Source: Roseovarius sp.
GTDB taxonomy: Bacteria > Pseudomonadota > Alphaproteobacteria > Rhodobacterales > Rhodobacteraceae
Assembly (NCBI GenBank): GCA_021775255.1
Contig: JAJFIA010000013.1
Location: forward strand, 1-64,000
Length of the DNA: 64,000 nucleotides
Reading direction: 5' to 3'
Under the pieces are notes generated by a model. It did no database searches, was not told where the DNA came from, and saw only the letters and a program-made list of their open reading frames with translations. Shown here piece after piece: positions 10,182-25,455 of the stretch; position 1 is the first letter of the stretch; each line of letters begins with the position of its first letter. A program made the position numbers and the translations under genes.

Positions 10182-10210
10182 TTGACTTTACGGGTGGTTA
10201 CACGTATAGG
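10182..10210 (+). promoter_or_regulatory. putative promoter of the GTA cluster
   Basis: TTGACT (10182-10187), 17-nt spacer, TATAGG (10205-10210): the clearest sigma70-type promoter in the window. It lies about 120 nt upstream of g1 and points into the GTA cluster. A terminator-like hairpin follows at 10240-10272, so the leader may be attenuated. Activator sites for GTA regulators cannot be recognised by eye. Confidence 0.65.
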
Positions 10211-10217
10211 TTGCGCC

Positions 10218-10272
10218 ATGCTGATTGATGTGTGAAAGCGCCCTCGGGGGGTATTATCCCCGCAGGCTTTTT
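10218..10272 (+). promoter_or_regulatory. GTA leader: five-codon ORF and terminator-like hairpin
   Basis: Just downstream of the promoter is a tiny ORF ATG CTG ATT GAT GTG TGA (10218-10235). Five nucleotides later comes a hairpin: GCC (10240-10242) with GGC (10265-10267), and CGGGG (10245-10249) with CCCCG (10258-10262), separated by a 2x2 internal loop and followed by TTTTT (10268-10272). This has the shape of an intrinsic terminator before g1 at 10331. Alternatives are the end of a ~55-nt small RNA, or a leader that GTA regulators must read through. The structure is visible; regulation is inference. Confidence 0.5.
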
Positions 10273-10330: not shown

Positions 10331-10672
10331 ATGACATTGATTACCCCCGATGACGGCCCCACGGGCCTGAGCGCTTCGGTTTTATCGCTGCAAAATCAAC
10401 TGAGTGATATGAAGGCCGATCTTGAAGCGCTGCAGGAGAAGGTCAGGGCCGGAGACTTTGAAGAACTGAAAAATTCAACACGGGCGATTTCCGATATCCG
10501 GCAATGGCTGAAAATCGCAATAGAAGCAGAGGTGACCCTCAATGAACGTAACAAACGCAAAAAAGGCATTGTCCGCGACTATGCCCTCGACTTCGACACA
10601 GCACGGGCTCAGATCGGGTGCCGCCTGGATCGCCTCAGAAGGGCTAGATGCCCAAATGGATTTCCTCGATAG
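10331..10672 (+). CDS. GTA small terminase subunit (g1)
   Basis: 113 residues. The counterpart in Rhodobacter capsulatus GTA (g1) is the small terminase that recognises DNA and starts packaging. The protein is mostly helical, with a coiled-coil-like first half (LSASVLSLQNQLSDMKADLEALQEKV) and a central ISDIRQWLKIAIEAEVTLNE. Size and position directly before the large terminase agree with g1. It has no canonical DNA-binding domain, as expected for GTA TerS, which packages non-specifically. The gene overlaps the start of g2 by 131 nt in a different frame. The ribosome site is weak. Assignment is by position and general character more than by motif. Confidence 0.8.
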   Translation: MTLITPDDGPTGLSASVLSLQNQLSDMKADLEALQEKVRAGDFEELKNSTRAISDIRQWLKIAIEAEVTLNERNKRKKGIVRDYALDFDTARAQIGCRLDRLRRARCPNGFPR

Positions 10673-11951
10673 CCTTGATGAGGGCGAATTGCTGGCGCTG
10701 CCCTATCTGTTTGAATTCTGGGCGATGGAGCATCAACTGCCGCCGGAGGGTGACTGGCGGGCCTGGGTGATCATGGGCGGGCGCGGTGCGGGGAAAACGC
10801 GCGCAGGTGCGGAATGGGTGCGCGCACAGGTCGAAGGCTCGCGCCCTTTGGATGAGGGGCGCTGCCGGCGGCTGGCGCTGGTGGGGGAGACGATTGATCA
10901 GGTGCGCGAGGTGATGATATTTGGCGAAAGCGGAATTTTGGCCTGTTCGCCTGATGACCGCAGGCCGGAATGGCAGGCCTCGCGCAAGCGGTTGATCTGG
11001 CCCAACGGGGCCACGGCGCAGGCGTTTTCGGCGCATGACCCTGAGGGCCTGCGGGGGCCGCAGTTTGACGGCGCCTGGGTGGATGAGATGGCCAAGTGGA
11101 AGAAGGCGCGCGATACCTGGGATATGTTGCAGTTTGCCTTGCGGCTGGGGGATCATCCGCAGGTCTGTGTGACCACGACGCCGCGCAATGTGGGGGTTTT
11201 GAAGGAGCTGGTTCAGTTGGATACGACGGTGGTGACATCCGCCGCGACGGAAGCAAACAGCGCGTTTCTGGCGGAAAGCTTTCTGGAAGAAGTGCGGGCG
11301 CGCTATGCCGGTACGCGGCTGGGGCGGCAGGAACTGGATGGTATTTTGCTGGACGAGGCTGAGGGGGCGCTGTGGAATTCGGCGGGGCTTGAGGCGTGCC
11401 GGGTGGATCAAGCGCCCGAGATGGACCGGATCGTGGTGGCGGTTGATCCGCCGGTCACGGGTAAGGATAGCTCGGATGAATGCGGGATTGTCGTGGTGGG
11501 GGCCATCACAAAAGGCCCGGTGCAGGATTGGAAGGCTTATGTTTTACATGATGCCACAATCGGGGCGGCCTCGCCCAATCGCTGGGCCAATGCGGCGATC
11601 AGGGCGATGGAGGCCTGGGGCGCGGAGCGGCTGGTGGTTGAAGTCAATCAGGGGGGTGATCTGGTATCATCGGTGATCCGGCAGGTGGACCCGCTGGTGC
11701 CGATCAAGGCGGTACATGCGAGCCGGGGCAAGGTAGCACGCGCCGAGCCTGCGGCGGCACTCTATGAGCAGGGGCGGATATACCATCTGAAGGGGCTGGG
11801 CGAGTTGGAGGATCAGATGTGCGCGATGACGGCACAGGGGTTTGAGGGCAAAGGCAGCCCTGACCGGGTGGACGCGCTGGTCTGGGCGCTGACCGAGCTG
11901 ATGATTGAACCGGCAGCGAAATGGCGGCGGCCTCAGGTGCGGGCGGTGTGA
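10542..11951 (+). CDS. GTA large terminase, DNA packaging ATPase-nuclease (g2)
   Basis: 469 residues. It drives headful packaging of host DNA into GTA capsids. Walker A GGRGAGKT lies at about residues 79-86 after the family block LLALPYLFEFWAMEHQLPPEGDW, and Walker B is in FDGAWVDEMAKW at about 185. The C-terminal RNase H-like nuclease shows acidic positions in RIVVAVDPPVTG and in the RVDALVWALTEL ending. The start at 10542 has AGAGG upstream and gives a 131-nt overlap with g1; a start at 10581 is possible but has a poorer ribosome site. In canonical GTA clusters the portal gene follows directly; here about 1 kb of foreign-looking DNA intervenes. Confidence 0.95.
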   Translation: MNVTNAKKALSATMPSTSTQHGLRSGAAWIASEGLDAQMDFLDSLDEGELLALPYLFEFWAMEHQLPPEGDWRAWVIMGGRGAGKTRAGAEWVRAQVEGSRPLDEGRCRRLALVGETIDQVREVMIFGESGILACSPDDRRPEWQASRKRLIWPNGATAQAFSAHDPEGLRGPQFDGAWVDEMAKWKKARDTWDMLQFALRLGDHPQVCVTTTPRNVGVLKELVQLDTTVVTSAATEANSAFLAESFLEEVRARYAGTRLGRQELDGILLDEAEGALWNSAGLEACRVDQAPEMDRIVVAVDPPVTGKDSSDECGIVVVGAITKGPVQDWKAYVLHDATIGAASPNRWANAAIRAMEAWGAERLVVEVNQGGDLVSSVIRQVDPLVPIKAVHASRGKVARAEPAAALYEQGRIYHLKGLGELEDQMCAMTAQGFEGKGSPDRVDALVWALTELMIEPAAKWRRPQVRAV

Positions 11952-11990
11952 GGGGGGTTGGTTGTAATGCGAATAGAACTGTAGGTGAAT

Positions 11991-12132
11991 GCCGGGCAGC
12001 GCCTGCCCGTGGGATGGTGCCGCAACATTTGTGATCTGTCACATAATCTCCGCCAAACACATCCCGCCCTCTGAACTAGGCGCTACCCTCATCCAAGCAC
12101 CAGCCCGCCGGGACGGGCAGGCGCTGCCCGGC
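11991..12132. repeat. perfect 20-nt inverted repeat within the GTA cluster
   Basis: GCCGGGCAGCGCCTGCCCGT at 11991-12010 is repeated exactly inverted at 12113-12132, with 102 nt between. Right of the second arm lies another palindrome, GGCGC/GCGCC at 12133-12137 and 12141-12145. CCCGCCGGG near 12104 faces CCGGGCGGG near 12153 with one mismatch. No coding capacity is apparent. The block sits between the large terminase gene and the DUF4440-like gene and may be a non-autonomous palindromic element. Confidence 0.85.
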
Positions 12133-12267
12133 GGCGCAATGCGCCTTGATACCGGGCGGGAAAATGGGTCTTGGGGTTTGTAATGGGTTTGAAGCGAGTG
12201 ACCCCATGCCGTACAATCTATGGGTTTCGCGATGCTAGACGGCAAAAACAATTGATGCCAGAATGCG

Positions 12268-12660
12268 ATGATGCATGATTCAGATAAAATACTGGATAAA
12301 GACACTTTGGCTGAAATTCAGACTTTAGAGGAAAGTCTGTGGAGAGCCGAAACACGATATAATTACAAATTTATGGACAGAATGTTTTCTCCAGACTTTT
12401 TTGAGTTTGGTCGTTCGGGAAAAACCTATTCTCGAACGGAAATGATTTTAAACGAAGGGAAAACTGGTGAAATTGCGGCAACTATTCCATTGCCAAAATT
12501 TCATGCTCGTTATCTGACGGATGATGTCGTGCAAACCATATATGTCAGCGAAGTCAAATATGATGGGAAATTATTGCGTGCGAATAGGTCATCAATTTGG
12601 AGTCGCTTAGATGGTTTGTGGCAATTGAGATTTCACCAAGGTACGCCGATAGAAAATTAG
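12268..12660 (+). CDS. DUF4440 / NTF2-like protein, insertion between GTA g2 and g3
   Basis: 130 residues. The sequence LAEIQTLEESLWRAETRYNYKFMDRMFSPDFFEFGRSGK and the later TIYVSEVKYDGK, then SSIWSRLDGLWQLRFHQGTP, have the layout of DUF4440/SnoaL-type NTF2-like proteins: an N-terminal helix pair followed by a curved sheet. No signal peptide or membrane segment is seen. No catalytic residue can be named. The gene is visibly AT-rich (about 40% GC in hand-counted lines) beside GC-rich GTA genes, and it separates terminase from portal, so it was probably acquired. It is flanked on the left by a strong palindromic block. It is not a known GTA structural gene; a role in particle production is neither shown nor excluded. 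Confidence 0.75.
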   Translation: MMHDSDKILDKDTLAEIQTLEESLWRAETRYNYKFMDRMFSPDFFEFGRSGKTYSRTEMILNEGKTGEIAATIPLPKFHARYLTDDVVQTIYVSEVKYDGKLLRANRSSIWSRLDGLWQLRFHQGTPIEN

Positions 12661-12955
12661 CCTTATAAAACCCATCGGCTTTGTGACAGGCGATGGTGGT
12701 TTGTGGGGCAAAACGGGCATCCCACCTTTTGAACAGGCTGCCAATGAGATTCGAGCGCAAAAAATCAACTTCATAGGTTTTCATCATCAGTGATAACGAC
12801 TGCTTTTGGCATTTGGGCTGGTCCTGTTCAACCGTCCGGGCAGCCCCAACAGATGCAACGCGCGGTGTGATTTAGCTTTGTTAAACTTTTGGACGTCTGA
12901 TGCGCATCAAGCGGGAAACCCCGGATTATTTGGCATCAGCAAGGAGCATCACAGG
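12661..12955. other. non-coding stretch between the DUF4440 gene and the portal gene
   Basis: About 295 nt without a convincing gene. Just after the DUF4440 stop an imperfect hairpin can form (AACC then CATCG near 12668, with CGATG and GGTT near 12692-12702), but without a U-run. An open frame into the portal gene exists from 12806, but its translation does not match portal N-termini. AAGGAG at 12941-12946 is the portal ribosome site. Confidence 0.5.
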
Positions 12956-14158
12956 ATGATTTTGGACTTCTTTCGGCAAAATGGAGCGGCGAAGGTGCCT
13001 GGGGAATCTCAGCCTGAGCAAAAGGCCAGTGCGACGGGTGGGATCATGGCGTGGCATGGCTCGGGGCGGGTGGCGTGGAGCCCGCGCGATACGGTGACGT
13101 TGACGCGCACCGGATTCAATGGCAATCCGGTTGGGTTTCGCTGTGTCAAGATGATAGCCGAGGCCGCCGCCGCGCTGCCACTGGTGTTGCAGGATGAAAT
13201 GCAAAGGTTTGCGGTGCATCCGCTGCTGGAGCTGATCAACAGCCCCAATCCGGCGCAGGGCCGCGCGGAGCTGTTTGAGGCTTTGTATGGCCAGATGTTG
13301 CTGACCGGGAATGCCTATCTGGAGGCCGTGGGGGCCGAGGAGGGTGTGCCGCTGGAGCTGCATGTGCTGCGCTCGGACCGGATGAGCGTTGTGCCGGGGC
13401 CGGATGGCTGGCCGGTGGCGTATGAATATGCGGTGGGCGGGCGTAAGCATCGGTTTGATGTGAGCCAGGGCGCGCCCATGGTGCTGCACCTGAAAAGCTT
13501 TCATCCGCAGGATGATCATTACGGGTTTTCGCCGATGCAGGCGGCGGCGCAGGCGGTGGATGTGCATAATAGCGCGAGCCGCTGGTCGAAGGCTTTGCTG
13601 GATAATGCGGCGCGGCCAAGCGGGGCGATTGTCTATCGCGGGGCCGAGGGGCAATCGGCGCTGAGCACGGATCAGTATGACCGGCTGGTGAGTGAGATGG
13701 AGAGCCATCATCAGGGCGCACGCAATGCGGGCCGTCCGATGCTGCTGGAAGGTGGGCTGGATTGGAAACCGATGGGGTTTTCACCCTCGGATATGGAATT
13801 TCAGAAAACCAAGGAAAGTGCGGCGCGTGAGATTGCGCTGGCATTCGGGGTGCCGCCGATGTTGCTGGGCATTCCGGGGGATGCGACTTTTGCCAATTAT
13901 CAGGAGGCCAACCGCGCGTTTTACCGCCTTACGGTGTTGCCGCTAGCGGCGCGGGTGGCGGCGGGTGTGGCGGATTGGCTGGCGGGCTTTACCGGTGATG
14001 ATCTGGATCTGAAGCCGGATTTGGATCAGGTGTCGGCGCTGTCAAGTGAACGCGATGCGCAATGGAAGCGGGTCGCGGGGGCGGATTTCCTGACACAAGC
14101 GGAAAAGCGCAGTTTGCTGGGCTTGCCGGCCTTGACGGATGAGGCTGCTGATGGATGA
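12956..14158 (+). CDS. GTA portal protein (g3), HK97 family
   Basis: 400 residues. It forms the dodecameric portal at the capsid vertex through which DNA enters and leaves. Family blocks: MILDFFRQ start, WHGSGRVAWSPRDTVTLTRTGFNGNPVGFR (about 33-62), LINSPNPAQGRAELFEALYGQMLLTGNAYLEA (about 95-125), and the C-terminal REIALAFGVPPMLLGIPGDATFANYQEANRAFYR (about 298-330), characteristic of HK97-like portals. The start was set at the ATG preceded by AAGGAG at 9 nt; an upstream in-frame start would add 50 unrelated residues. The stop overlaps the next small GTA gene. Confidence 0.95.
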   Translation: MILDFFRQNGAAKVPGESQPEQKASATGGIMAWHGSGRVAWSPRDTVTLTRTGFNGNPVGFRCVKMIAEAAAALPLVLQDEMQRFAVHPLLELINSPNPAQGRAELFEALYGQMLLTGNAYLEAVGAEEGVPLELHVLRSDRMSVVPGPDGWPVAYEYAVGGRKHRFDVSQGAPMVLHLKSFHPQDDHYGFSPMQAAAQAVDVHNSASRWSKALLDNAARPSGAIVYRGAEGQSALSTDQYDRLVSEMESHHQGARNAGRPMLLEGGLDWKPMGFSPSDMEFQKTKESAAREIALAFGVPPMLLGIPGDATFANYQEANRAFYRLTVLPLAARVAAGVADWLAGFTGDDLDLKPDLDQVSALSSERDAQWKRVAGADFLTQAEKRSLLGLPALTDEAADG

Positions 14159-21435: not shown

Positions 21436-24400
21436 ATGGCGACTATTGTTCTTTCAAGTGTGGGGGCGGCTGTGGGCGGCTCGATCGGCGGCTCGGTTCT
21501 GGGTATTTCCTCGGCTGCGATCGGGCGCTTTGCCGGGGCCGTGATCGGCCGCTCTATTGATCAGCGCCTTTTGGGGCAGGGATCGGACGTGGTGGAGACC
21601 GGCCGGGTGAACCGGCTGCGCCTGACCGGCGCGGGCGAAGGCGAAGCGGTGGCGCAGGTTTATGGGCGGATGCGGGTCTCAGGCCAAGTGATTTGGGCCA
21701 CGGAATTTCAAGAGAATGTGACCACGACCGGCGGCAGGCGCGGCGGCAAGGGCGCGCCGAAACCGCCCACCCCGACGCAGCGCAATTTCAGCTATTCCAT
21801 CAGCCTGGCGATTGCCCTGAGCGAGGGCGAGATCAGCCATGTGGGCCGGGTCTGGGCGGATGGATCGGAGATTGCGCCCGACAGCCTGAATATGCGGGTC
21901 TATCGCGGCACCATGGATCAACTGCCGGATTCCAAGATGGAAGCGGTTGAGGGTGCAGGTTTGGTGCCGGCCTATCGCGGCACGGCCTATGTGGTGATCG
22001 AGGATCTGGATCTGGCGACATTCGGCAACCGGGTGCCGCAGTTGACATTTGAGGTTACCCGCCCGTCGCAGCCTTTTCAGGAGGGCTATGAGCTGGACCC
22101 CGCGCATGGGATAAAGGCGGTGGCGATGTTGCCCGGCAGCGGTGAATACGCCCTGGCAACCACGCCGGTGAACATCAATTTCGGTTTTGGCACTGGCGGG
22201 CTGGCGAATGTCAATTCGGCCTCGGCCAAGGCGGATTTTGCCACCTCATTGGAAAACCTGACCGGTGAGATACCGGGCTGCCGGGGGGCATCCCTGGTGG
22301 TGAGCTGGATTGGCGATGATCTGCGCAGCAATCTGGCCACGATCCGGCCCAAGCTGGAGCAGAAGGATTTTGATTCCTCGAACATGCCCTGGCAGGTTTC
22401 CGGGCTGACACGACAAACCGCGCAGCTTGTGGCCCGCGATGGGGATGACCGGCCGGTCTATGGCGGCACGCCCGCCGATGCCTCGGTGATCGAGGCCATT
22501 CTGGCGTTGCAGCAATCGGGCAAGGACGTGATGTATTACCCGTTTATCCTGATGGAGCAGACGGCAAATAACGGCCTGCCGGACCCCTATAGCGACGCAC
22601 CCGATCAGGCGATATTGCCGTGGCGCGGGCGCATCACCCTGTCAAAAGCGCCGGGGCAGCCCGGCAGCCCGGATGGCACGGCGGCGGCGGATGCGGAAGT
22701 GGCGGCGTTTTTCGGCACCGCGCAGGCCAGTGATTTCATTATTGGCCCGGTCAATCCGGCTCCGGATCCGAATGCGCCCCAAAATGGCGCGATTGAGCTG
22801 TTGAGCTTTGGCGGGGCCGTCAAGCAAAGCCCGATCACGTATAATGGCCCCGATGAATGGGGATACCGGCGGTTTATCCTGCATCAGGCGGCCCTCTGTG
22901 CGGCTGTGGGCGGGGTTGAAAGCTTCTGCATCGGCTCGGAAATGCGCGGGCTGACGCAGATCAGGGGCGCGAATAACAGCTTTCCGGCGGTCACGGCGCT
23001 GATTGATCTGGCAACCGAGGTGCGTGCCCTGCTGGGGCCGGATGTGAAGATCAGCTATGCCGCCGACTGGTCGGAATATTTTGGCTTTCATCCGCAGGAT
23101 GGCAGCGGCGATATATTCTTTCACCTTGATCCGCTTTGGGCCGATAACAACATTGATTTCATTGGCATCGACAATTACGTGCCGCTGTCGGACTGGCGCG
23201 AGGGGCAGGACCATCTGGATGCGAATTTTGGCGCGATTTACAAGCTGGACTATCTGCAATCCAATATCGAGGGCGGAGAGGGGTTTGACTGGTTCTATCA
23301 TTCCCCCGAGGCGCGCGAGGCGCAAATTCGCACGCCGGTCTTTGATAGCGCTTACGAGGAACACTGGATTTTCCGGTTCAAGGATTTTCATGGGTTTTGG
23401 CTGAATTCCCATCACGAGCGGGTGGGCGGTGTGCGCGCCGGATTGCCAACCGATTGGGTGCCGCAATCGAAACCATTCCGCTTTACCGAATTTGGCTGTG
23501 CGGCGGTCGACAAGGGCAGCAATCAGCCGAATAAATTTGTCGATGCGAAATCATCGGAATCAAGCCTGCCGAATTTCTCGGACGGGCGCCGGGATGATCT
23601 GATCCAGCATCAGTATCTGCGGGCGATGACCGGCTATTGGAATGATCCGGCGCATAACCCCATATCCATCGAATATGATGCGCCGATGATTGATATGGAA
23701 CATGCCCATGTCTGGGCCTGGGATGCGCGGCCCTATCCGTTTTTCCCCAATAATCGCGGACTGTGGAGCGATGGCGAGAATTATTCGCGTGGGCATTGGA
23801 TCACCGGGCGGGCGTCATCGCGGTCGCTGGCTTCGGTGGTGGATGAGATCAATATTGTGGCCGGTCTGGAGCACTATGATTTATCGCATCTGTTTGGTTT
23901 TGTGCATGGGTTCCTGGCGGATCGGGTGGGCGAGGCGCGGGCCTCGTTACAACCCTTGCAACTGCGCTATGGCTTTGATGCGGTTGAGCGCGACGGGATC
24001 TTGAAATTTGAGCTGCGCGACGGGCTGCTGGACATGCTACTTGATCCACAGTTTCTGGTGCGTGATCCTGAACTGAACGCGGTGCTGGAGGAAACAAGGG
24101 GCGCGGCGGCAGAGGCCGCCGGGCGGGTGCGGCTGCGGTTTATCGAGGCCGATGGCAATTTTGAGGTGATCGCGGAAGAGGCGATTTTGCCCAATGAGGC
24201 CACACATGCGGTTTCCACCTCGGAAATGCCATTGGTGATGACGCGGGCGCAGGGGCGGCAGACGGTTGAACGCTGGCTGTCGGAAACGCAGGTGTCTACC
24301 GATACGCTGCGGCTTTCACTGCCGCCCTCAAAGCTGCAACTGGGGGCTGGCGATATTTTCGGCCTGCCCGAGGATGGCGGCACCGGATTGTTCCGGATTG

Positions 24401-25455
24401 ACCGGGTTGAAATCCTGGGCAATGCCCAGCGGATTGAGGCGGTGCGGGTTGAACCCGAAAGCTATCGCCCGATTGATATTGATGAAATTCCCGCCCGGGT
24501 GCGGACATTCACGCCGCCTTCGCCGGTGACACCCTTGTTCATGGACCTGCCGCTGATGCTGGGCGATGAGGTGCCGCATGCGCCGCATCTGGCGGTGACG
24601 GCCAGGCCATGGCCGGGCACGGCAGCGCTGTATTCATCGGATGTGGATGCCAATTATCAGCTTAACCTGATCGTGCCCGCGCCCACCCCGGTTGGGATGA
24701 CGGAAAACCAGATGCCGCATGCCCGTGAAGGGGTGATTGACCGTGGCGATGGCCTGATCGTTAAAATGCTATCAGGACAGTTGGAAAGCGTGGGCGATGA
24801 GGAATTTCTGGCGGGGGCGAACCTATGTGCGATAGGCGATGGCACGCCGGATGGCTGGGAATTGTTCCAGTTTCGCGATGCCGAAATGATTGCCGAGGAC
24901 ACCTATTTCCTCAGCCACCGTTTGCGCGGTCAGGCGGGGACAAATTCGGCCCAGACCGGTGCCTGGCCGGTGGGGTCGATTGTTGTGCGGATGGATGGCA
25001 CGCCGTTGCAGATTGCCCTGGCCGAGGCCAAGCGCGGGCTGGCGCGGCATTACCGCGTCGGGCCGGGGGCACGGCCGGTGGATGACCCTTCATTTCAGCA
25101 TGCGGTGTTGGCGTTTGACGGCATCGGCCTGAGGCCCTACAGCCCGGCGCATTTGCGGGCAAGCGCGCAGGCATCTGGCGATATTGATTATAGCTGGATC
25201 CGGCGCACTCGCATTGGCGGTGATCGCTGGGATACGCCCGAGGTGCCGCTTGGCGAAGAAACTGAGCAATATCTGTTGCGGGTGATGCAGGGCACAAATG
25301 TGCTGCGCGAGGTGATAGTGAACACGCCTGATTGGACCTATAGCGCGGCGGATCAGGCCAGCGATGCCCTAAGCGGCGCGTTTGAGCTCAATGTGGCGCA
25401 AATATCGGCCAGCTTCGGCCCCGGTGTGTTTGCCATACTGGCACAATCCGCCTGA
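21436..25455 (+). CDS. GTA baseplate megatron / host specificity protein (g15)
   Basis: 1339 residues, the largest GTA protein. A glycine- and alanine-rich hydrophobic N-terminus (about 1-40, VGGSIGGSVLGISSAAIGRFAGAVIG) resembles a membrane-penetrating segment. The middle (about 430-760) is the GTA TIM-barrel-like (glycoside hydrolase-like) domain, with blocks VGGVESFCIGSEMRGLTQIRG, YAADWSEYFGFHP and IDFIGIDNYVPLSDW. Then comes the Phage-tail_3-type beta region and a C-terminal receptor-facing part. In RcGTA this trimer makes the central spike of the baseplate. It ends the cluster; a type-B palindrome follows 6 nt after the stop. Confidence 0.95.
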   Translation: MATIVLSSVGAAVGGSIGGSVLGISSAAIGRFAGAVIGRSIDQRLLGQGSDVVETGRVNRLRLTGAGEGEAVAQVYGRMRVSGQVIWATEFQENVTTTGGRRGGKGAPKPPTPTQRNFSYSISLAIALSEGEISHVGRVWADGSEIAPDSLNMRVYRGTMDQLPDSKMEAVEGAGLVPAYRGTAYVVIEDLDLATFGNRVPQLTFEVTRPSQPFQEGYELDPAHGIKAVAMLPGSGEYALATTPVNINFGFGTGGLANVNSASAKADFATSLENLTGEIPGCRGASLVVSWIGDDLRSNLATIRPKLEQKDFDSSNMPWQVSGLTRQTAQLVARDGDDRPVYGGTPADASVIEAILALQQSGKDVMYYPFILMEQTANNGLPDPYSDAPDQAILPWRGRITLSKAPGQPGSPDGTAAADAEVAAFFGTAQASDFIIGPVNPAPDPNAPQNGAIELLSFGGAVKQSPITYNGPDEWGYRRFILHQAALCAAVGGVESFCIGSEMRGLTQIRGANNSFPAVTALIDLATEVRALLGPDVKISYAADWSEYFGFHPQDGSGDIFFHLDPLWADNNIDFIGIDNYVPLSDWREGQDHLDANFGAIYKLDYLQSNIEGGEGFDWFYHSPEAREAQIRTPVFDSAYEEHWIFRFKDFHGFWLNSHHERVGGVRAGLPTDWVPQSKPFRFTEFGCAAVDKGSNQPNKFVDAKSSESSLPNFSDGRRDDLIQHQYLRAMTGYWNDPAHNPISIEYDAPMIDMEHAHVWAWDARPYPFFPNNRGLWSDGENYSRGHWITGRASSRSLASVVDEINIVAGLEHYDLSHLFGFVHGFLADRVGEARASLQPLQLRYGFDAVERDGILKFELRDGLLDMLLDPQFLVRDPELNAVLEETRGAAAEAAGRVRLRFIEADGNFEVIAEEAILPNEATHAVSTSEMPLVMTRAQGRQTVERWLSETQVSTDTLRLSLPPSKLQLGAGDIFGLPEDGGTGLFRIDRVEILGNAQRIEAVRVEPESYRPIDIDEIPARVRTFTPPSPVTPLFMDLPLMLGDEVPHAPHLAVTARPWPGTAALYSSDVDANYQLNLIVPAPTPVGMTENQMPHAREGVIDRGDGLIVKMLSGQLESVGDEEFLAGANLCAIGDGTPDGWELFQFRDAEMIAEDTYFLSHRLRGQAGTNSAQTGAWPVGSIVVRMDGTPLQIALAEAKRGLARHYRVGPGARPVDDPSFQHAVLAFDGIGLRPYSPAHLRASAQASGDIDYSWIRRTRIGGDRWDTPEVPLGEETEQYLLRVMQGTNVLREVIVNTPDWTYSAADQASDALSGAFELNVAQISASFGPGVFAILAQSA

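Follow-up and report, generated by a model that had tools for sequence, protein, structure and literature searches.

A conserved element ahead of the portal gene is probably the reason why passenger genes occur at the terminase–portal joint of Roseovarius GTA clusters

The GTA cluster of the window and its insert

The DNA analyzed here, a window of 64,000 nucleotides on contig C5 of a 3.4-Mb Roseovarius genome, carries an RcGTA-type cluster that extends from g1 (10331) to the megatron gene (21436-25455); for the cluster genes, we use the customary names g1–g15. Terminase, portal, head protein, protease, capsid, connector, and megatron genes stand in the order that is usual in the RcGTA-type cluster of R. 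capsulatus, and terminase, portal, protease, capsid, and megatron are all found in one cluster, as expected for an RcGTA-like locus. The tested cluster genes are intact, and the megatron is full-length (1792 bits). Unlike in the RcGTA-type cluster of R. capsulatus, a foreign gene parts g2 from g3 in the window (Table 1), and this joint is often filled or split in the genus. One survey describes the GTA cluster as well preserved, also in its orientation (PMC9836097). A short palindromic repeat of a second kind (GTGGGTTTCACCCACC) has four copies in the window (14406, 40297, 40339, and 58599), one of which sits within the GTA cluster, between g3.5 and g4.

Table 1. Features at and around the g2/g3 joint of the window
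Feature	Position	Strand	Evidence or remark
Promoter-like TTGACT-N17-TATAGG before g1	10182-10210	+	Strict pattern in 23/51 g1 leaders
Terminator-like hairpin with T run, between the promoter-like pair and g1	10245-10262		Site scan
GTA large terminase (g2), last gene of the upstream block	10542-11951	+	Pfam Terminase_6N E 7e-31, Terminase_6C E 2e-18
Last terminase codons, left copy of a 12-nt direct repeat	11940-11951	+	11/12 alike with 12859-12870; repeat family D9
Inserted segment	11952-12858		No counterpart at the empty junctions of relatives (gap 79-142 bp in 15/47 versus 1004 bp here)
Dispersed repeat, about 175 bp, REP- or MITE-like	11986-12160		20-bp inverted arms; copies elsewhere in the genome
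Acquired DUF4440 gene, 130 aa	12268-12660	+	PF14534 (E 2.5e-13); GC 38.4% versus 57.8% in the window; open frame intact
Conserved element before the portal, present whatever stands upstream	12859-12904	+	Consensus match; model R1
Core motif CGGT-N14-TTAA, candidate GTA-regulon promoter box	12863-12884	+	Sole exact match in the window
GTA portal (g3), first gene of the downstream block	12956-14158	+	Pfam Phage_portal E 1e-89

The distance between the end of the terminase gene (11951) and the start of the portal gene (12956) agrees with the gap of about 1 kb that a first-pass annotation of the window had described. We delimit the insert to about 11952-12858, because the last 97 bp (12859-12955) represent a portal leader that is common to the relatives and thus non-foreign. 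The strong inverted repeats that had been seen in this region have arms of 20 nt with 100% complementarity (11991-12010 and 12113-12132), and they are part of the dispersed repeat of about 175 bp, of which further copies, 78-86% identical to that of the window, are found on contigs C1, C8, C11, and C17 of the same genome. Counting the contig of the window, this short inverted-repeat unit is dispersed over five contigs, in the manner of MITE- or REP-like repeats.

The protein encoded by the insert is indeed DUF4440-like and has the annotated 130 residues, with a Pfam match that covers residues 17-120 and positions 1-107 of the 107 positions of the profile (50.8 bits, compared with a curated cut-off of 25.2). 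The AT-richness of the gene, which had already been recognized, is also evident at third codon positions (GC3 34.4% versus 55-79% in the GTA genes compared), and the 400 bp with the lowest GC content of the 64 kb start at 12251 when scanned in steps of 50. DUF4440 proteins have an NTF2-like fold, and the protein of the window resembles them by its full-length match, with nothing special seen. An alignment with seven homologues contains 15 invariant columns, with 42-48% identity for six of the homologues, all of which come from other genera. A single-sequence AlphaFold2 prediction (mean pLDDT 37.5) was too poor a model for a fold assignment, and the comparison with the PDB resulted in one match only, which was at chance level (E 0.66).

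The DUF4440 gene is foreign. It is present in one of 84 genomes of the genus, which is that of the window itself; none of the other 83 has the gene at this position, no match in them exceeds 29% identity, and the three further matches in the genus (27-29%) are located on other contigs or more than 1 Mb away from the terminase locus. Together with the aberrant composition, this supports the annotated view of a foreign single gene that lies between structural genes, none of which is broken. In a family-wide search of 394 genomes, eight others matched the protein at 31-48% identity, and the relative in genome G093 is found 3 Mb away from the GTA portal of that genome. Plasmid records matched in 56 of 72,556 cases, the best with 49% identity (Tritonibacter mobilis), phage records in one of 50,697 cases (32% identity), and a scan of viral contigs gave no match. 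These searches together indicate an acquired gene of a kind that resides in bacterial genomes and plasmids.

The first-pass annotation had compared the gene to a phage moron, and the resemblance lies in its being a lone foreign gene of odd composition amid structural genes, on the same strand as the cluster, with an open frame and the conserved residues of its family. A phage-type moron would be self-expressed by its own promoter and terminator, and it would be kept as an aid to the GTA or to the host during GTA production. However, morons are mobile accessory genes of phages or prophages, and this gene has next to no relatives in phages, none in the viral contigs, and its homologues, including the remote copy of G093, belong to bacterial genomes and plasmids. 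Neither a promoter nor a terminator stands out: three promoter-like and four terminator-like sites were detected on both strands of 4.5 kb, and shuffled sequences gave 2.3 and 4.7, respectively. Furthermore, the gene is confined to the window among the genus genomes, and several of the passengers that occupy the same joint in relatives are encoded on the opposite strand. The moron interpretation in its strict sense was therefore not upheld, and we regard it as unlikely. The DUF4440 gene itself is ordinary; what surprises is the junction, together with the promoter-like box next to it.

The g2/g3 junction in relatives

A search for the portal in 60 genomes of the genus gave 53 with a portal-like match, from which four weak phage-type matches and a contig-edge fragment (G044) were dropped, so that the junction set comprises 48 loci, namely the window and 47 relatives. 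The junction is empty in 15 of these relatives, where the terminase gene ends 79-142 bp before the portal, and slightly widened to 188-268 bp in four. Other genes or sequences are present in 13 of the 47, with gaps of 624-1369 bp in 12 of them; the 13th, L070, has its contig edge 1.3 kb upstream and was counted as filled because this upstream region holds a DMSP-lyase-type gene. In the remaining 15, the junction is split, with no terminase within 3.6-6.2 kb upstream of the portal. An accessory gene at this position, which had been thought to be unusual for such a GTA, is thus no exception in a genus with 13 filled junctions and 15 in which more than 3.6 kb separate the portal from any terminase. 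The expectation that the portal follows the terminase almost without a gap roughly holds in other genera, where the distance amounts to 76-353 bp in 28 of 29 loci, the 29th having no terminase in the 1.5 kb examined. Gaps of 85-454 bp were also found at 57 named loci without a strong form of the conserved element that is described below, several of which are unplaced Rhodobacteraceae, with the exception of the Roseovarius-labelled locus L191 (1259 bp). As Pseudohalocynthiibacter aestuariivivens (L173) has the element and a gap of 819 bp, the filling of the joint is not strictly confined to records that are named Roseovarius.

The passengers vary and include a DMSP lyase, an MFS transporter, a DMP19-like protein, a family-3 binding protein, and five proteins without a Pfam match. 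The DMSP-lyase-type gene is encoded on the opposite strand at the GTA junction of a group of six species (L056, L057, L060, L064, L066, and L070); the six loci share the insert by DNA similarity, and the two proteins tested match PF16867 with E 3e-47 and 1e-51. Defence cargo was considered as the content of the junction and rejected, as PADLOC detected no defence system in ten proteins, that of the window and nine from relatives.

In the split genomes, the terminase gene is found on the same contig at a distance of 9.5-9.8 kb (G014 and G051), 48 kb (G049), 88-89 kb (G024 and G036), 320 kb (G038), or further away (G041), and it is inverted in G024, G036, and G038. In others, it is located on another contig, and no terminase was found in G018 and G043. 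R. mucosus DSM 17069 (L172) is among the strains with a split cluster. On a portal tree of the 48 loci, which was made by a quick method and has many weak forks, at least eight changes between near and broken junctions are required, and 18 when finer states are distinguished, with a single origin of the DMSP-lyase insert. The sister loci L071 and L073 have two stretches in common (163 and 103 bp) and carry different genes. L086 and L088 are empty, and their close relative L087 has an MFS gene and a differing element, which looks like the import of a block by recombination.

Reduced clusters were also seen. In eight species, a single open frame joins terminase residues 1-183 to the megatron from residue 686 onward, with an identical joint in all eight (..DE|YGC..); these loci are L090-L095, L390, and L391 of genomes G003, G460, G034, G016, G035, G457, G012, and G052, and the counterparts in the window are 10542-11090 and 23491-25455. 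Trees of the two fusion parts, with six and eight fusions, place most fused alleles beside the full-length alleles of their own lineage, and the same in-frame deletion of about 12 kb seems to have arisen several times. Microhomology at the joint was looked for in six full-length genomes, and it does not exceed chance, as the agreement of 7-9 of 20 bases is reached by 7-31% of all pairs. The dN/dS values of six fusions (0.08-0.36) were dropped as evidence of function, because the trees show several origins. Another reduced GTA, L097 (G040), has an intact terminase that is directly followed by an apparent g13 end and further tail genes, and its joint differs from that of the eight fusions.

The element ahead of the portal and its core motif

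Whatever stands upstream, an element of about 46 bp is conserved ahead of the portal. Within the 200 bp before the portal, the best match is clear in 46 of the 48 loci, with 31-44 of the 46 consensus bases, and it is weak in L063 and L076, where 26 and 24 bases agree and may do so by chance. The element starts 75-154 bp ahead of the portal start codon. At the 15 split loci, the mean pairwise identity rises from 0.33 in the ten columns before the element to 0.73 in its first ten columns, a step to which the choice of the best match contributes to some degree. The motif alignment A1 contains 39 of the 48 elements; the window, L051, L053, L055, L063, L075, L076, L084, and L088 were omitted, being near-duplicates, the two weak elements, and others. 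Model R1, which was built without the window, detects the window element at E 3.7e-11. In 14 of 18 genomes, the model from the 39 relatives gives a single strong match, which lies at the portal; 13 of these 14 had contributed to the model or were very similar to it, in contrast to the genome of the window. The four genomes without a strong copy have the terminase–megatron fusion. In this search, about 600-1600 first-look candidates were present in each genome, of which 150 were scored. The full 46-nt element hardly occurs outside the genus: beyond the window, it was detected in two of 148 family genomes at E ≤ 0.01, in weak form and with strict filters. Of the 80 named loci, 79 were compared for their joints (L238, with 970 bp upstream, was excluded). 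A broken joint is found at 14 of the 22 loci that have the element and at one of the 57 without it, a difference (Fisher p 3e-9, uncorrected for kinship) that is confounded by kinship.

Alternatively, the variable joint would be neutral, a plain intergenic gap of a GTA in decay, where insertions and splits mark the loss of GTA function, and some genomes of the genus have indeed lost or shortened the cluster. However, the tested cluster genes of the window are intact, including the megatron, and the portal is well preserved in the genus, with 75-87% identity to that of the window in 48 strong matches other than the window and a stop in only two of 49 strong matches. In the split loci, moreover, the element is conserved next to upstream flanks that are at background identity. 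We consider such a neutral joint to be very unlikely.

The core of the element, CGGT-N14-TTAA, extends beyond the genus, and the idea of a genus-only element, which the family search with the whole element had first suggested, was given up when this shorter bipartite core was found in other genera. It is present upstream of the portal in 31 of the 48 genus loci and, among the 53 named loci that lack a strong element (52 from other genera), in 17, and upstream of g1 in seven of 51 leaders, the g1 of the window having none. Dinucleotide shuffles contain 0.1-0.2 core matches on average, and a scan of spacings from 9 to 19 shows that 14 dominates, the others being four and one matches at 9, one at 10, two at 18, and one at 19. 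Visual inspection of g1 leaders and of portal leaders from other genera first drew attention to the core, which was defined after portal and g1 leaders had been viewed. The counts for portal and g1 are thus descriptive and do not represent independent tests. Shuffles also ignore kinship, from which the agreement between different genes is independent.

This agreement includes a tailspike-like gene, which was found through a related box that precedes it in four genomes. The gene is present in 55 of 60 genus genomes; its leader was examined in 50 of the 55, including three of the four, and the core is found in 47 of these 50. An exact ACCGTNACGGT-N14-TTAA occurs in 14 of 20 genomes, in all 14 directly before the tailspike-like gene. 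The encoded protein has a pectate-lyase-like stretch. In the genome of the window, the box starts 141 bp ahead of this gene, and the protein has 763 residues. For TspA of RcGTA, residues up to 763 are described, which is the same length, and lysS is reported as a neighbor of tspA. A sequence comparison with the PDB at E 0.001 gave no relative of the tailspike-like protein, and lysS was not recognized by eye in 18 kb around the gene. We therefore call the protein TspA-like and no more. We infer that it belongs to the GTA genes, and in this case the core would be a sequence common to the leaders of several GTA units, as expected for a GTA-regulon promoter.

It is the place and not the number of the sites that gives the core its meaning. 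The exact core occurs once in the window, a number that is equalled or exceeded in 45 of 100 shuffled versions of it. There is no genome-wide excess of CGYRCGGT-N14-TTAA, with 71 sites in 36 genus genomes versus 81 for the reversed control, and when one mismatch is allowed, 27 sites of ACCGTNACGGT-N14-TTAA are found in 20 genomes versus 39 for the control. By their coordinates, 29 of the 71 sites precede the portal (19), g1 (6), or the tailspike-like gene (4), and several other box sites are inside genes or ahead of non-GTA genes. In two genomes (L302 in G032 and L303 in G008), CGYRCGGT-N14-TTAA is found 71 bp before a gene that by eye resembles an acyl-homoserine-lactone synthase; Pfam and NCBIfam gave no match for the protein of L302, where a LuxR-like end lies upstream.

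At most empty junctions, the first bases of the element are at the same time the last codons of the terminase gene, and with an insert there are two copies (Table 1). The element could be a recombination or insertion site for a site-specific system whose insertions would duplicate about 12 bp, the conservation being that of the recognition sequence. The single right-hand edge that inserts of several lineages share would agree with this, as would the direct repeat of this edge in the window and the closely related L087 and L088, in which the element differs together with the insert. However, neither an integrase nor a transposase was recognized among ten insert proteins of nine loci, the element is retained in split loci, and the same core precedes the tailspike-like gene and some g1 genes. 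The repeat can also be explained if a single sequence is constrained twice, as the terminase end and as the element start. Insertion may have duplicated these bases, or their overlap may be a derived state; both forms are seen in the outgroups, where terminase end and element overlap in L137 and are separate in L138. A role as recombination site thus appears improbable to us.

A putative promoter of the downstream block

We favor, as the fairly probable explanation, that the passenger DUF4440 gene and its repeat survive at the g2/g3 joint because the genes from g3 onward have their own putative GTA-regulon promoter at 12859-12904. In this model, an ordinary acquired gene and a dispersed repeat would have landed between g2 and g3. 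Upon GTA induction, g1–g2 would be transcribed from a promoter before g1, and g3–g15 would be transcribed also from the element ahead of the portal, with GafA as the most likely regulator and TTAA as a possible CtrA half-site. The genes from portal to megatron would keep their own start and tolerate an upstream DUF4440 gene or an unrelated chromosomal region. With a promoter for each of the two blocks, DNA between g2 and g3 would be harmless, and the joint would be a weak seam of the cluster that repeatedly gained genes in this genus and often opened fully, leaving g1–g2 elsewhere in the genome.

The assignment to GafA is based on data from R. capsulatus, where GafA activates the GTA cluster and tspA and was placed 50-100 bp upstream of tspA by EMSA (PMC13420450); CtrA half-sites were noted in late GTA promoters (PMC9638019). 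The arrangement found here, with the core before the portal and the tailspike-like gene, resembles these GafA-dependent promoters, as GafA binds before tspA (PMC13420450), and we therefore propose that the element is a promoter under the control of GafA, which may include a CtrA half-site at TTAA. According to a 2024 paper, which also describes extra IHF sites within the GTA cluster of Caulobacter, GafA sites are not mapped at nucleotide resolution (PMC11150451). That the element is a promoter, is bound by GafA, and causes the tolerance of insertions is what we infer from the comparison of sequences, and 17 of the 48 portal leaders and 44 of the 51 g1 leaders, which have no exact CGGT-N14-TTAA, argue against the model.

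The window belongs to a class with the TTGACT-N17-TATAGG form in the g1 leader (Table 1), and its own g1 leader has no box. The hairpin is found in 22 of the 23 leaders with this form, and 33 of the 51 g1 leaders hold it 56-69 nt before g1 by plain count without shuffle control. By analogy, this arrangement would fit an anti-termination by GafA, and anti-termination has been shown for GafZ of Caulobacter (PMC11150451).

The covered parts of the GTA literature make no mention of the box, of an internal promoter in a Rhodobacterales GTA, or of a broken g2/g3 joint, and the wording "internal promoter" is absent from the covered part of PMC9638019. As Figure S7 of that paper lists putative GafA sites, part of the box finding may be known; the novelty here lies in the junction.

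Our analysis bears on the wiring of GTA clusters and on what holds them together. We see an even chance that CGGT-N14-TTAA, often in the form CACCGTSACGGTG-N13-TTAA or CGYRCGGT-N14-TTAA, would be a signature of the Rhodobacterales GTA regulon that is read by GafA alone or with CtrA, that the promoter from g3 onward would divide the cluster into two exchangeable modules, and that the joint in Roseovarius would be a hot spot for host genes, such as the DUF4440 gene or the DMSP lyase of six species, which finally frees the terminase. Being 22 bp long, of fixed spacing, and present ahead of several genes, the box is a directly testable candidate for the GafA site. If this holds true, the box would predict GTA-regulon genes in other Rhodobacterales, for which the gene context is needed because the box alone is not rare. 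The variable joint is also a warning for searches that expect the terminase beside the portal, and it would explain how host genes can enter a GTA cluster, or how the cluster can break up, without obvious gene loss. A short motif may thus mark the GTA genes of a bacterial family, and the conserved element before the portal is probably what allows passengers at the joint.
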